A stretch of 49,438 nt of DNA from Fimbriimonadaceae bacterium (GTDB lineage: Bacteria > Armatimonadota > Fimbriimonadia > Fimbriimonadales > Fimbriimonadaceae): the NCBI GenBank assembly GCA_024710805.1, contig JANJUB010000131.1, positions 1 through 49,438 on the forward strand, given 5' to 3'. This document shows, piece after piece, positions 2,146-31,000 of this stretch. The notes below the pieces were generated by a model. The model saw only the letters and a list, made by a program, of their open reading frames with translations, had not been told where the DNA came from and did no database searches. Every line of letters starts with the position of its first letter. Within the stretch, counting starts at the first letter, position 1. A program made the translations under genes and the position numbers.

Positions 2146-2240
2146 GGGGGCGCATCTCGGCCGGTGTCGGGCATGGTCTTCAAAACCAGTTGAGGCTCCT
2201 TACGGGGCCTGGTAGGTTCGACTCCTACACGCTCCCGCCA
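2146..2240 (+). tRNA. selC: tRNA-Sec (selenocysteine, anticodon UCA)
   Basis: 95 nt including the encoded CCA (2238-2240), the same length as E. coli selC. The anticodon loop CTTCAAA (2178-2184) carries TCA at 2180-2182, which reads UGA. Features specific to tRNA-Sec: an 8-position acceptor (2146-2153 with 2229-2236; pair 4 is G-U and position 8 is a C-A mismatch), a D-stem CTCGG/TCGGG with a short loop, a long variable arm with a 7-bp stem (AGGCTCC/GGGGCCT around TTAC), and a T-stem GTAGG/CCTAC around TTCGACT, followed by G-CCA. The long variable arm and UCA anticodon exclude tRNA-Trp and tRNA-Ser. The anticodon stem shows only four clear pairs (TGGT/ACCA). No selA, selB, selD or clear selenoprotein gene lies in the window. 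A small hairpin (CCTTGC/GCAAGG, 2254-2271) follows and may end the transcript. Confidence 0.9.
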
Positions 2241-25912: not shown

Positions 25913-26475
25913 TACCAGTCACTCTCCTCTTCTTGACCGAGCACGGTCACCTGGACCGCGCCCGTGCCTTCCAGCGTGGATCGGGTTTCGTCAGCCGCAT
26001 ACCGCGGATCCTTGGCCTCGATCAGCAGGAAGAACCGATCTTGCGAAGCTCGATCGAAGTTTGGGGCATCGAAAACCGGGTGGTGCGGCTGAGGCAGCCG
26101 GTTCAGGCCGATCATGCCAAACACCGCGCCAAACGCCGCAAACAGGATGGTTGTTTCGAACGCGGGCGGCACGAAGGACGGCCAACTGAACAGCGGTCGT
26201 CCGCCAACGTTCAGAGGATAGGCATGGACCGAGACCCACCACTGAAGGGCGAGTCCGCCGAAGCCACCCATTACGCCCATGACAAAAATGATCCACGGCA
26301 CTTTCGCCTCGCGGAATCCAATCGCCTCGGGCAAGCCGTGCACGGGGAACGGCGTGAACGCATCCATCCGGGTGTAACCCTGATCGAGGGCGGTGTTCGC
26401 CGCCGCGATCAGGGTCTCCGGGCTTTCGTATTCGGCGATGATGCCGAAGGGTCCAGGTTTAGTCGGGGCATGCAT
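25912..26475 (-). CDS. actD: Alternative complex III subunit ActD (DUF3341)
   Basis: 187 residues with two membrane helices (about 60-82 and 95-120). The N-terminal soluble domain (FGIIAEYESPETLIAAANTALDQGYTRMDAFTPFPVHGLPEAIG) is the DUF3341 signature; the two helices follow, with WWVSVHAYPLNVGGRPLFSWP between them. ActD has no cofactor and is a structural membrane subunit. Both ends are coupled by single-base TAATG junctions to actC and actE. Confidence 0.92.
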   Translation of the reverse strand: MHAPTKPGPFGIIAEYESPETLIAAANTALDQGYTRMDAFTPFPVHGLPEAIGFREAKVPWIIFVMGVMGGFGGLALQWWVSVHAYPLNVGGRPLFSWPSFVPPAFETTILFAAFGAVFGMIGLNRLPQPHHPVFDAPNFDRASQDRFFLLIEAKDPRYAADETRSTLEGTGAVQVTVLGQEEESDW

Positions 26476-27896
26476 TAGGCTTCACCCCCCGTCACCGCAG
26501 GCTCAGCCTTATGCTCGCCTTCTTTCGTGCGGTGCAGAAGCTCACGCATTTCGAAGATCGAGATCATCGGCAGGAAGCGGATGAACAGGAACATCAGGAA
26601 GAAGAAGAGGCCGATCGTTCCGAGGAACATGCCGAAGTCCCAGATGGTCGGCACGTACATGCCCCAGCTCGACGGCAAGAAGTCTCGGTGGAGGCTCATC
26701 GGGATGATGACGAACCGCTCGAACCACATTCCCACGCTGACGAACAGCGTGACGATCCACACCCACGGCAGGTGCTGGCGATACTTCTGCTTCCACAGCG
26801 TCAGCGGCACGATGCCGTTGCACAGAATCAGCAGCCAGTACGCCCAGCCGTAGGGGCCGAACATGCGGTTCTTCATCATGAACGCTTCGTATTGGTTGCC
26901 ACTATAGAAGCTGAAGAAGATCTCGGCAAGGTAGCCGTAGAAGACGATCATTCCCGTCGCCAGCATGATCTTGCACATCCAGTCGATGTGCTTCATGGTG
27001 ACGAAGTCCTTCAGGTTGTACATCGCCCGCATGGGGATGAGGAAGGCAAGAACCATCGCGAAGCCGGCAAACACCGCGCCCGCGACGAAGTACGGCGGGA
27101 AGAGGGTGACGTGCCAACCCGGCAGGATCGAGACGGCGAAGTCGAACGACACGATCGAGTGAACCGACAAGACGAGCGGAGTCGAGAGGCCGCCCAGGAT
27201 CAGGTAGGCCTGCTCGTACCGGTGCCAGTGCTTCGTCGAACCGCGCCAACCCAGCGAGGCGACGCCGTAGACGAACCGCGCGGTCTTGTTCTTCGCACGA
27301 TCACGCAACGTTGCGAAGTCAGGAATCAGACCGATGCCCCAGAAGAGCAACGAGACCGTGAAGTAGGTCGAGACCGCAAAGACGTCCCAGACCAGTGGCG
27401 ATCGGAAGTTCGGCCACATCGCCAGCCAGTTCGGATACGGGAACAACCAATAAGCCGCCCAAGGGCGACCCGTATGGAGGAGCGGGAACAAACCTGCGCA
27501 CATAACCGCGAAGATCGTCATCGCCTCCGCAAACCGGTTGATCGACATACGCCACTTCTGGCGCATCAGCAGGAGAATCGCGGAGATCAGGGTTCCGGCG
27601 TGACCGATACCGATCCACCAGACAAAGTTGATGATGTCGAAGCCCCAGGCCGATGGCTGGTTGTTACCCCAGATACCGATGCCTTGGTAGAGCAACCAAC
27701 CAATGGACAGCATCAGCACCGACACGAGCAAGAACCCCATGGTGATGAAGAGGAACCACTGCTTGCCTTTCGCGTGCGAGGGCGAGAAGTTGTCCTGATT
27801 CAGCACCACCGAGCCGATACGATCGGTGATCGTATCGTAGTTGTGCTGCCCCTCGATCAGGACATCATCAACGGGTCTCAGCTTTGGGTCTGCCAT
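26475..27896 (-). CDS. actC: Alternative complex III subunit ActC (NrfD/PsrC-like quinol-binding subunit)
   Basis: 473 residues, about ten membrane segments. The block WGFDIINFVWWIGIGHAGTLISAILLLMRQKWRMSINR is the hallmark of NrfD-like subunits and contains the conserved His/Asp region near the quinol site. Other typical stretches are SVHSIVSFDFAVSILPGWHVTLFPPYFVAGAVFAG and FMMKNRMFGPYGWAYW. This subunit is thought to oxidise quinol and may move protons. It starts one base after the end of actB. A long open frame on the opposite strand is only a shadow of this GC-rich gene. Confidence 0.93.
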   Translation of the reverse strand: MADPKLRPVDDVLIEGQHNYDTITDRIGSVVLNQDNFSPSHAKGKQWFLFITMGFLLVSVLMLSIGWLLYQGIGIWGNNQPSAWGFDIINFVWWIGIGHAGTLISAILLLMRQKWRMSINRFAEAMTIFAVMCAGLFPLLHTGRPWAAYWLFPYPNWLAMWPNFRSPLVWDVFAVSTYFTVSLLFWGIGLIPDFATLRDRAKNKTARFVYGVASLGWRGSTKHWHRYEQAYLILGGLSTPLVLSVHSIVSFDFAVSILPGWHVTLFPPYFVAGAVFAGFAMVLAFLIPMRAMYNLKDFVTMKHIDWMCKIMLATGMIVFYGYLAEIFFSFYSGNQYEAFMMKNRMFGPYGWAYWLLILCNGIVPLTLWKQKYRQHLPWVWIVTLFVSVGMWFERFVIIPMSLHRDFLPSSWGMYVPTIWDFGMFLGTIGLFFFLMFLFIRFLPMISIFEMRELLHRTKEGEHKAEPAVTGGEA

Positions 27897-27897
27897 C

Positions 27898-30800
27898 TTA
27901 TGCGGTCTCCAATGCGGGGTGCGGGTTTCGAACCCGGCCCAGATAGGTCGTTCGCGGTCGCGTATTCAACTCGGTGAGCAGGCCGTAGTTCCGGCCGTTG
28001 GCCCGAGCGCGGGTAACCGCACTTGCCGGGTCAGCGAGGTTGCCAAATGTGATCGCCTGCGTCGGACACGCTTGCTGACATGCGGTCACGATCTCGCCGT
28101 CCTTGATCTCGCGCTTCTCCTTCTTGGCCACAATCCTGGCCTCGTTGATGCGCTGGACGCAGTAGGTGCACTTCTCCATGACACCTCGGCTCCGAACCGT
28201 GACGTCCGGGTTGTGCAGCAACCTGAGGAGCTTGATATCTTGCTCGTTCTGGAAGTTGCGCTGGCCGTAGTCCTTGCCAGGAATTTGATCGCGGCTTCCG
28301 AACTGATAGTTGTAGTAGTTGAACCGGCGCACCTTGTAGGGACAGTTGTTCGAGCAGTAGCGGGTGCCGACACAGCGGTTGTAAACCATCTGGTTCAAAC
28401 CTTCGTGGCTGTGCACCGTGGCCGCAACCGGACAGACCGGCTCACAGGGCGCCGTTTCGCAGTGCATACACATGATCGGCTGGAAGACCGTCATGGTCGA
28501 GTTCGGATCAAGAACGTCCTGGGCGGCTTTCGGGCTGATCGAACCCGATTGCGCAGGGCTCTCCCAAGGCGATCCGGCACCCGTGCCAACGTCGCGCATC
28601 TTGCCTGCGTCCTTAACCCGGTAGTAGCGGTCGACGCGGATCCAGTGCATCTCGCGGCCCCGGCTAACCTCACCCTTGCCGACGGTCGGAATGTTGTTTT
28701 CTGACTGGCAAGCACTGACGCAGGCATTGCAGCCCACGCAGAGGTTCAGGTCGATGACCATGCCGTATTGCGGATAGCCGTACTTCTCCCACTCCTTGGT
28801 GAGGTTGTACAGCGTGACATCTTCGAAATGGTGAAGGTTCTCGGGCTCCAGCGAGTTGTCCTTCATAAAGTCGGCGACCGTACCCTCGCGGATAATGTCG
28901 CGGCCCTCCATCGAGTGGTGGAGTTGAGCGGTGGCGAGCGGCGTCTTGCCCTTCACCTTTTCGACTTGCACGACGGCAAAGTCGGGGTGCCGCGTCGAGC
29001 GAAGCTTCATGAAGTCGAAGCCCACACCCCCGAGAACCTTGCCCGTCTCGGTGCGGCCGCCGCCCATGTGCAGCGTGATGACGTTGTCCGGATGGCCCGG
29101 TTGAACGAAGACCGGCGCTTCCACGGTCACCCCGTTCGCGGTGACCTGAACGTGATCCTCGAACTGAACCCCGAGTTGCTCGGCAGTGGCCGGACTGATG
29201 AGCACCGGGTTGTCCCAAGTCATCTTGGTCAACGGCTTCGGAAGCTCCTGCATCCAACCGTTGTTCGCGTACGAGCCGTCCCAGATGGTCGGATCGGGCA
29301 GGAACACAGCGTAGGTGCCGCTCGCGGCCTTGGGACTGACGTCCAACCCGGCGAGGGAGGCCGCCACTTCCTTCGGCTGGGCTTGCGTGCCCTTGATGAA
29401 ACCATCATGGAGAGCCTGCTCCCAGGTAATCCGGTCCGGAAGAACCGACTTCCACGTTTCGCGAACGATCTCCTCCGAAGGACGCGTATCCTTCATCATC
29501 AGCGCGAGTACTTCGAGCAAAGACTTACCCTTGTGAAGAGGCTCGATCAGCGGCTGCTGCAGCGTAATCGTGCCATCCAGCGTCGGCAGGTCGCCCCACG
29601 TCTCCAAGAAGTTCGCCTCAGGAAGGACCCACTGGCAAAGCTTGGATGTCTCGTTTGCCGAGTCTCCCAGGTAGATCGAGGTGGGAACCGCGGGCAAGAA
29701 GTCACCGAACTTCAAGTCCCCAGGCGCCGAGTAGACCGGATTGCCGCCCGCAATCATCAGCGTGCGGACCTTGCCTCCGGACAACGCCTGCGCGAGCTCC
29801 GCCAACGAGTCCAGCTTCATGACTGGAGCGCGTTCGGCGAGCGGATAGTAGTCCACCGGGGCTCCGATCTTCTTATTGATCGCGTGGGCGATCGCGTGAA
29901 CTTCCGCGGACTGGTGCGCGCCAACGTAGACCAAGCCACCTCGCGACAGATCTTGCGCCAATGCATCGATCCACTTCGAAGTGACTCCACCGGGCAGATC
30001 GACATTCGCGACCATCACGCCGAGCTTTGCCGCGACCGCCGCGGCAACTTGAAGCACTTCGGCCGGTGAGATCGCCACCCGGTGATCAGCAAATGCGCCG
30101 GTCAAGGTCGGCGAACTCTCGACGGCCCAGAGCCGACTCATGCCCTGTCCCGGAGTTCGCGTCGATGCGAAGTCACGAGCGTAGGCGACCGTGTGCGGGT
30201 TCGTCGCCATGAAGCAACCGTCAAGCGAAAGCACGGCGCGTGCTTCAGCGAACCGGTAGATCGGCTGGACCGACTCCCCAAAAGCCATGCGCGTGCCCGA
30301 CATCTCGTGGTCGTTGTTCACGACCTCGTATTGGTGCCACTTCGCATTCGGGTAGGACTTGAGGAACCGCTGAATCTGCCCGAAGAGCGTCGGCGACGTC
30401 ACGGCTCCCGTAAGAAGATGGAAACCGGCACCACCGGTCGGCTTCATATCTTCGAGCATCTTGCGCGACATGCCGAAGAAGGAATCCCAGGTGTTGATGA
30501 GCCCCTTTTGGCTGACATCTCCGAGCCGATCCGGGTCGTACATGTTCAGGATCGCGGCCTGGACAAAACAATCCGACAGCCCACGGCTTGCCGGGTGATC
30601 CGGATTACCGTCAAGCTTGGTCGGGCGACCTTCGTGGCTTTCGACGATGACCGGGAATCCGTAACCGCCGAAGGGCATCGCGGTCGCATAGTGCAACGCG
30701 GTGCCGGGCGGGCGATTCTCGGGATCGCGGACGAAGGGAATGACCTTCTCCTGTGGAAGATTGCGACAACCGGCCAAACCCGCGAGCGCCATGGAGGCAC

Positions 30801-30966
30801 CCATGAGTTTCAAAACCGAGCGGCGATCGACCTCAGGAATCGAACGGCGATGAGGAAACTCATCATCGAGCCACTCCTTGAACTCGTCGGTCTCCGCCAG
30901 TTGCTCCAACCCCTTCCAATAGGCAGAGCCCGACTTGCCACCCAGCTTCTGCCGGATCGCGGACAT
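27898..30966 (-). CDS. actB: Alternative complex III subunit ActB (molybdopterin-like plus iron-sulfur domains, Tat-exported)
   Basis: About 1022 residues from ATG at 30966, which has a GGAAGGGAAG ribosome site; a TTG nine codons earlier is less likely. A Tat-like twin-arginine stretch (DRRSVLKLMGAS, Arg48-Arg49) leads the protein across the membrane. Residues about 70-700 resemble the molybdopterin oxidoreductase fold that carries no molybdenum in ActB. The C-terminal part binds iron-sulfur clusters: CVGCNACVSACQSENN, CMHCETAPCEPVCP, CVGTRYCSNNCP, and CTYCVQR with ACQQACP. These serve the electron path from quinol to heme. Both domains are fused in one chain here, as in most ACIII clusters. 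Confidence 0.93.
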   Translation of the reverse strand: MSAIRQKLGGKSGSAYWKGLEQLAETDEFKEWLDDEFPHRRSIPEVDRRSVLKLMGASMALAGLAGCRNLPQEKVIPFVRDPENRPPGTALHYATAMPFGGYGFPVIVESHEGRPTKLDGNPDHPASRGLSDCFVQAAILNMYDPDRLGDVSQKGLINTWDSFFGMSRKMLEDMKPTGGAGFHLLTGAVTSPTLFGQIQRFLKSYPNAKWHQYEVVNNDHEMSGTRMAFGESVQPIYRFAEARAVLSLDGCFMATNPHTVAYARDFASTRTPGQGMSRLWAVESSPTLTGAFADHRVAISPAEVLQVAAAVAAKLGVMVANVDLPGGVTSKWIDALAQDLSRGGLVYVGAHQSAEVHAIAHAINKKIGAPVDYYPLAERAPVMKLDSLAELAQALSGGKVRTLMIAGGNPVYSAPGDLKFGDFLPAVPTSIYLGDSANETSKLCQWVLPEANFLETWGDLPTLDGTITLQQPLIEPLHKGKSLLEVLALMMKDTRPSEEIVRETWKSVLPDRITWEQALHDGFIKGTQAQPKEVAASLAGLDVSPKAASGTYAVFLPDPTIWDGSYANNGWMQELPKPLTKMTWDNPVLISPATAEQLGVQFEDHVQVTANGVTVEAPVFVQPGHPDNVITLHMGGGRTETGKVLGGVGFDFMKLRSTRHPDFAVVQVEKVKGKTPLATAQLHHSMEGRDIIREGTVADFMKDNSLEPENLHHFEDVTLYNLTKEWEKYGYPQYGMVIDLNLCVGCNACVSACQSENNIPTVGKGEVSRGREMHWIRVDRYYRVKDAGKMRDVGTGAGSPWESPAQSGSISPKAAQDVLDPNSTMTVFQPIMCMHCETAPCEPVCPVAATVHSHEGLNQMVYNRCVGTRYCSNNCPYKVRRFNYYNYQFGSRDQIPGKDYGQRNFQNEQDIKLLRLLHNPDVTVRSRGVMEKCTYCVQRINEARIVAKKEKREIKDGEIVTACQQACPTQAITFGNLADPASAVTRARANGRNYGLLTELNTRPRTTYLGRVRNPHPALETA

Positions 30967-31000
30967 ATCTAAACGCTTCCCTTCCGTCCCCAACTTGTTC

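Follow-up and report, generated by a model that had tools for sequence, protein, structure and literature searches.

The tRNA gene at positions 2146-2240 of the window, by which the whole stretch of 49,438 nucleotides analyzed here is meant, very probably belongs to a working bacterial selenocysteine (Sec) system of Fimbriimonadaceae that reads UGA in two genes, selD and a gene for a redoxin with Sec near its C-terminus. This GUXX-star redoxin likely represents a new selenoprotein family, found among the searched genomes only in Fimbriimonadales: a putative secreted enzyme of thioredoxin fold whose second catalytic residue would no longer lie in the CxxC motif but be a C-terminal Sec (Cys67-Sec184), with a bSECIS located entirely 3' of the stop. 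Both conclusions were drawn from comparison of sequences across genomes. A sequence-only reading of the window had expected UGA-containing selenoprotein genes in this genome, which standard annotation would truncate. Two such genes were found, both with bSECIS-like hairpins, and annotation would cut selD near its start and the redoxin three residues early.

The redoxin gene was found by a PF00578 search of the genome, followed by inspection of the ends of the matches. It encodes an AhpC/TlpA-like protein of 186 aa (G000:C159:6027-6587, with G000 for the source genome and C159 for the contig) and ends ...FDGAPSGGG-UGA-GCC-TTC-TAA, i.e. GAPSGGG-U-AF-stop. Homologs in relatives end GU[A/P/S/G][F/Y/I]-stop, or GCxF or GCxI in Cys forms; Sec and Cys are exchanged at one column, and this C/U184 column was invariant in 29 proteins. 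At least 36 UGA redoxin genes were found in at least 32 Fimbriimonadales genomes. Among the matches listed in a profile search of 291 genomes of the phylum, Sec-site UGA forms occurred in families f1 and f5 only, both of the same order. Named public records identical to loci of these genomes are Fimbriimonadaceae (in family f1, ACE_ARM8 and Bin_61_3, each labeled Fimbriimonadaceae bacterium) and thus Armatimonadota, the phylum that had been guessed from the letters of the window. The frames of L312 (G147; UGFPY, then UGA) and L314 (G148; UAFPNAASSAARVDG, then stop) run beyond two residues after Sec, so that the length of the UXX-stop end is not fixed.

The hairpin of the own redoxin gene, CGUUUCCC-GGU-GGGAAACG, begins four nucleotides after the stop codon. 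Taken alone, it outdid shuffled sequences only slightly (z -1.66), and the case for a redoxin bSECIS therefore rests on the comparison across genomes. A hairpin was present in 36/36 UGA redoxin genes; its loop begins 21-27 nt away, counted from the U of the UGA, and most often reads GGUC (13 of 36) or GGU (8 of 36). In the bSECIS of E. coli fdhF, GGU is found at 22-24. Double-changed cells numbered 92, compared to a shuffled mean of 21 and a maximum of 41. We are aware that the hairpins were picked per sequence, which biases the paired fraction upwards and makes TGA-ended ORFs and Cys homologs the fairer controls. A stem of at least 6 pairs was found in 50 of 339 TGA-ended ORFs, 11 of them also with a G[GT]T loop, and in 1 of 10 Cys homologs, there located further away. 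In seven of the 36 UGA genes (L235, L238, L239, L279, L309, L313, L316) the stop after U-x-x is again UGA. Here the true stop would be a second UGA, three codons behind that for Sec, and a single bSECIS would need to recode the first but not the second; if the first UGA is Sec and the second a stop, the position relative to the hairpin decides. These genes offer a natural test of the UGA-bSECIS distance needed for recoding.

With just three residues at stake, and with stem-loops as common after stops as in the control TGA stops, the redoxin UGA might also be an ordinary stop, and the next two codons, the following stop and the hairpin a product of chance or a transcription terminator. We regard this as very unlikely, because the hairpin keeps a set distance, a G-U-containing loop and compensatory changes throughout the UGA genes, because nearly all of them end U-x-[F/Y/I]-stop, matching the GC-x-F of the Cys homologs, and because the own redoxin gene has, further 3' of its GGU-loop hairpin, a second one that is terminator-like and has a T tract. 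Moreover, the UGA forms track tRNA-Sec. With UGA forms taken among the matches listed, tRNA-Sec was found in 31 of 32 UGA-redoxin genomes and in 27 of 81 others (Fisher p of 1.1e-10, relatedness not corrected). For genomes G126-G177 the list of UGA redoxins was fixed before the search for tRNA-Sec, and 12/12 genomes with a Sec-site UGA had the tRNA versus 11/40 others. In the genera g4, g7, g16, g19, and g24 the UGA genomes have tRNA-Sec, and some congeners are without it. The lone real exception was G054 (73% complete, 380 contigs), with a UGA redoxin and no tRNA-Sec found; its congener G052 has both. G142 was rejected as a UGA form without tRNA-Sec, its Sec-site residue being Cys and its TGA lying at another place. 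In 27 tRNA-Sec genomes no UGA form of the redoxin family was found among the matches listed, indicating that retention of Sec is not generally explained by the redoxin.

Reading the UGA as Sec184, the own redoxin has a single Cys, Cys67 in a CPxN motif, and a Sec in the C-terminal tail. Cys67 and C/U184 were invariant in the aligned redoxins, while the second Cys of CxxC was replaced in the aligned UGA forms (CPAN, CPVN, CPHN, CPIN, CPVS, CSAN, CGSN). The protein scored 64 bits against PF00578 (AhpC-TSA; Pfam, cut-off 26). The AlphaFold model gave a confident thioredoxin fold with a mean pLDDT of 88.8, with values of about 96 for residues 171-180 and about 85 for the last six. Its closest folds were ResA/TlpA and AhpE (Z of about 17, residues 24-169). 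A hydrophobic N-terminal segment in the predicted protein indicates that the redoxin is exported. Most likely it would work outside the cytoplasm as a thiol oxidoreductase resembling 2-Cys peroxiredoxins or TlpA, with Sec184 predicted to pair with Cys67 as a selenenylsulfide. The predicted Cys67/Sec184 layout provides a compact model for C-terminal selenium chemistry like that of mammalian thioredoxin reductase.

The selC gene of the window was called by ARAGORN as tRNA-SeC at exactly 2146-2240 (+) with anticodon TCA. RF01852 matched it end to end at 2146-2236 with 67.2 bits (Rfam gathering score 47, E-value 1.2e-11) and was the sole Rfam gathering match in the window. The sequence-only reading had placed a Sec tRNA of 95 nt with UCA anticodon and long variable arm at this very locus, and the two methods agree with it to the base; the Sec covariance model that it had proposed as a check accepts the locus. 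Genome-wide, the runner-up to RF01852 was a tRNA-Ser(CGA) with 47.4 bits, 20 bits lower, and across the whole genome the tRNA-Sec score was well separated from those of the tRNA-Ser, -Leu, and -Arg genes that cross-match. The length of 95 nt includes the encoded CCA at 2238-2240. The features are as follows.

2146..2240 (+): tRNA-Sec (selC), 95 nt with encoded CCA (ARAGORN; RF01852, 67.2 bits; alignment with 30 relatives)
2180..2182 (+): UCA anticodon, reads UGA (ARAGORN, TCA at position 35; sequence)
2146..2152 (+): 5' strand of the acceptor stem, 7 standard pairs with 2230-2236 (sequence)
2153 (+): position 8 (C) facing A at 2229, non-standard as in most relatives (alignment)
2156..2171 (+): D arm, 6-bp stem (Rfam match; fold)
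2193..2210 (+): long variable arm, stem with 4-nt loop (fold)
2212..2228 (+): T arm, 5-bp stem GUAGG/CCUAC (alignment; fold)

An acceptor of 8 positions had been claimed as well. It shows 7 standard pairs (one of them G.U) and an eighth position, but the eighth, C8.A66 (2153/2229), is not a standard pair. The length of the tRNA is compatible with the 8/5 layout (8-bp acceptor, 5-bp T stem). Among the aligned tRNA-Sec of Fimbriimonadales, 30 of 31 lacked a standard pair at 8:66, as did 71 of 77 tRNA-Sec in a sample that covered many phyla, was picked by a pattern requiring A66 and had U at position 8 in only 6. A lineage-specific novelty was rejected, as the same state occurs in tRNA-Sec of Bacillota, Gemmatimonadota, Nitrospirota, and others of this A66-selected sample. 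Judged by these alignments, a non-standard 8:66 is a common tRNA-Sec feature, neither a novelty nor, since most tRNA-Sec examined share it, a defect. Taken together with a weak A.G in the stem of the anticodon arm, it could otherwise be seen as the mark of a pseudogene, of a tRNA-Ser assigned wrongly or of an allo-tRNA serving another function, in a genome with no working Sec system. Such a reading is extremely improbable for a gene that scores 67 bits versus 47 for the nearest tRNA-Ser, has its 8:66 state in common with most tRNA-Sec and stands in a genome with complete selA, selB, and selD and UGA genes; moreover, a genome of the same genus (G001) has tRNA-Sec, UGA selD and UGA redoxin, the latter with 95% identity. 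Between the end of the upstream gene (2104) and the start of the tRNA, a strong hairpin with UUCG loop (gcaggtggagagcTTCGgctctctgcctgc) without a T tract was observed at 2116-2145 of the window. At 26475-30993 of the window, a gene for an NrfD-like membrane protein adjoins that of a 1031-aa protein with 4Fe-4S domains; the pair appears to be part of an alternative complex III.

The window spans the whole of contig C147 in an assembly of 3.25 Mb and 207 contigs, with 96% completeness and 3% contamination. The genes selA, selB, and selD, which the sequence-only reading had expected elsewhere in the genome, were all found intact on other contigs: SelA at C160:3244-4308 (411 bits) and SelB at C143:14942-16771 (347 bits), both with no internal stops, and SelD at C191:17537-18436 (356 bits) with one TGA. 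Thus, selC, selA, selB, and selD occur together in one genome, on four different contigs. In related genomes, tRNA-Sec (at least 66 bits) was found in 35 of 61, with SelD above cut-off in 34 of these 35; neither gene was found in the other 26. The 35th tRNA-Sec genome, G036, has a low-scoring SelD fragment with UGA. Relatives with a complete genome on a single contig, e.g. G008 and G018, have both tRNA-Sec and SelD. Although the number of contigs, the contamination and the scatter of the sel genes might point to Sec genes of another organism mixed into the same bin, this has next to no probability in view of the same three genes in the close relative G001 and of the complete genomes G008 and G018.

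In the proposed Sec system, tRNA-Sec would be serylated by SerRS. SelA would then convert the seryl-tRNA to Sec-tRNA using selenophosphate from SelD, and SelB would deliver the Sec-tRNA to UGA codons upstream of a bSECIS hairpin. In G038 the tRNA-Sec gene adjoins selD (L064, G038:C4:80606-81722), unlike in the source genome with its sel genes on separate contigs. The record JADZEW010000001.1 (L100), labeled 'Methanoregulaceae archaeon isolate SJ84', was identical to contig C1 of G001 over 7,900 bases and 86% identical to the window. From these identities its archaeal label looks wrong, and the record looks like that of a Fimbriimonadaceae bacterium.

SelD had been named as a candidate selenoprotein, and the gene agrees with this, with one in-frame UGA (...VSCAG-U-ASKLGP) and a covarying bSECIS hairpin. 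In 28 UGA-containing selD genes from 28 genomes, a 7-bp hairpin follows the UGA, with the loop at nucleotides 36-40. Paired cells amounted to 86.7%, compared to only 28 to 63% for slid registers, and 19 double-changed cells were counted versus a shuffled mean of 6.5, with 0 of 500 shuffles as high. As this hairpin lies in the reading frame, part of its conservation is coding. The Rfam SECIS families gave no match on the own selD stretch. Two Sec-using genomes have a SelD with Cys instead of Sec (L063 in G040, L085 in G002); in L085 a weak hairpin remains where the bSECIS had been, suggesting that the change from Sec to Cys was recent. A Cys-form paralog of the redoxin (L020, end region SSGCSF) was found as divergent neighbour of selD at G000:C191:16851-17345 (-). 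The same divergent arrangement occurs in G001, and the homolog in G002 lies about 3 kb from selD. The paralog may supply electrons or selenium to SelD.

Formate dehydrogenase alpha had also been proposed as a selenoprotein and was rejected for the source genome, where it carries Cys (RVCHAP) and not Sec. No match to SelW-like proteins (PF10262) was found in the own genome, and in the other PF00578 thioredoxin-superfamily proteins of the genome the matched parts were free of UGA. One UGA close to the end of C16:11803-12138 (GCFIGS-UGA), with no suitable hairpin, was read as a real stop. The scan for hairpin plus UGA covered the window and selected loci of the own genome, and further selenoproteins are likely beyond them. 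Its sole other candidate, L214, whose hairpin loop is at a large distance from the UGA, was otherwise unsupported and was rejected.

Overall, Sec use in Fimbriimonadales (Armatimonadota) is wide but patchy, and the redoxin family stayed hidden from standard annotation because the loss is confined to the last three residues. In the open-access literature, no work on selenocysteine in Armatimonadota or Fimbriimonas was found, while an earlier mention elsewhere is possible; under the name Armatimonadetes, the open-access search yielded Planctomycetes work only.

The tRNA shares with E. coli selC and RF01852 the UCA anticodon, the long variable arm, the 6-bp D stem, the 5-bp T stem, the encoded CCA and the length of about 95 nt. 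At the eighth position of the acceptor, E. coli has a C-G pair and the tRNA of the window C.A, a difference common to most relatives and not specific for this genome. Taken alone, tRNA-Sec, sel genes and UGA selD are ordinary selenium biology. The redoxin matched no dedicated model of NCBIfam release 20; only general redoxin models matched, below cut-off. A 2026 inventory lists 119 prokaryotic selenoprotein families and subfamilies (PMC13188914), among them different kinds of families with a C-terminal Sec, and Sec redoxins whose motifs are N-terminal; no family in it combines the AhpC-TSA/TlpA fold with GUXX-stop. By their names alone, UXX-star families 1 and 2, KCU-star and SaoC (NF041114, NF041211, NF033934, NF040734; PMC13188914) have Sec at or near the C-terminus as in the redoxin, and here, too, annotation loses only the last residues. 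The redoxin differs as an AhpC-TSA/TlpA-fold protein of about 186 aa, and none of the four models was among the matches of the own redoxin (E-value up to 10) or among the matches listed (25 families) for 19 redoxin members. The Sec-containing Prx, Prx-like, Redoxin and UGC-TlpA families (PMC13188914, Table 1) belong to the thioredoxin-like superfamily like the GUXX-star redoxin, but carry the motifs TxxU, UxxC, UxxU, and UGC, whereas the GUXX-star redoxin has an N-terminal Cys (CPxN) and its Sec in the tail (GUxF-stop). With the ResA/TlpA oxidoreductases and AhpE/PrxQ peroxiredoxins (PDB 4nmu, 1st9, 1xxu) it shares the fold, but it is without CxxC and has an added C-terminal Sec/Cys tail outside the matched regions. 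Compared to these systems, the GUXX-star redoxin appears to be a new family of a known kind of selenoprotein.
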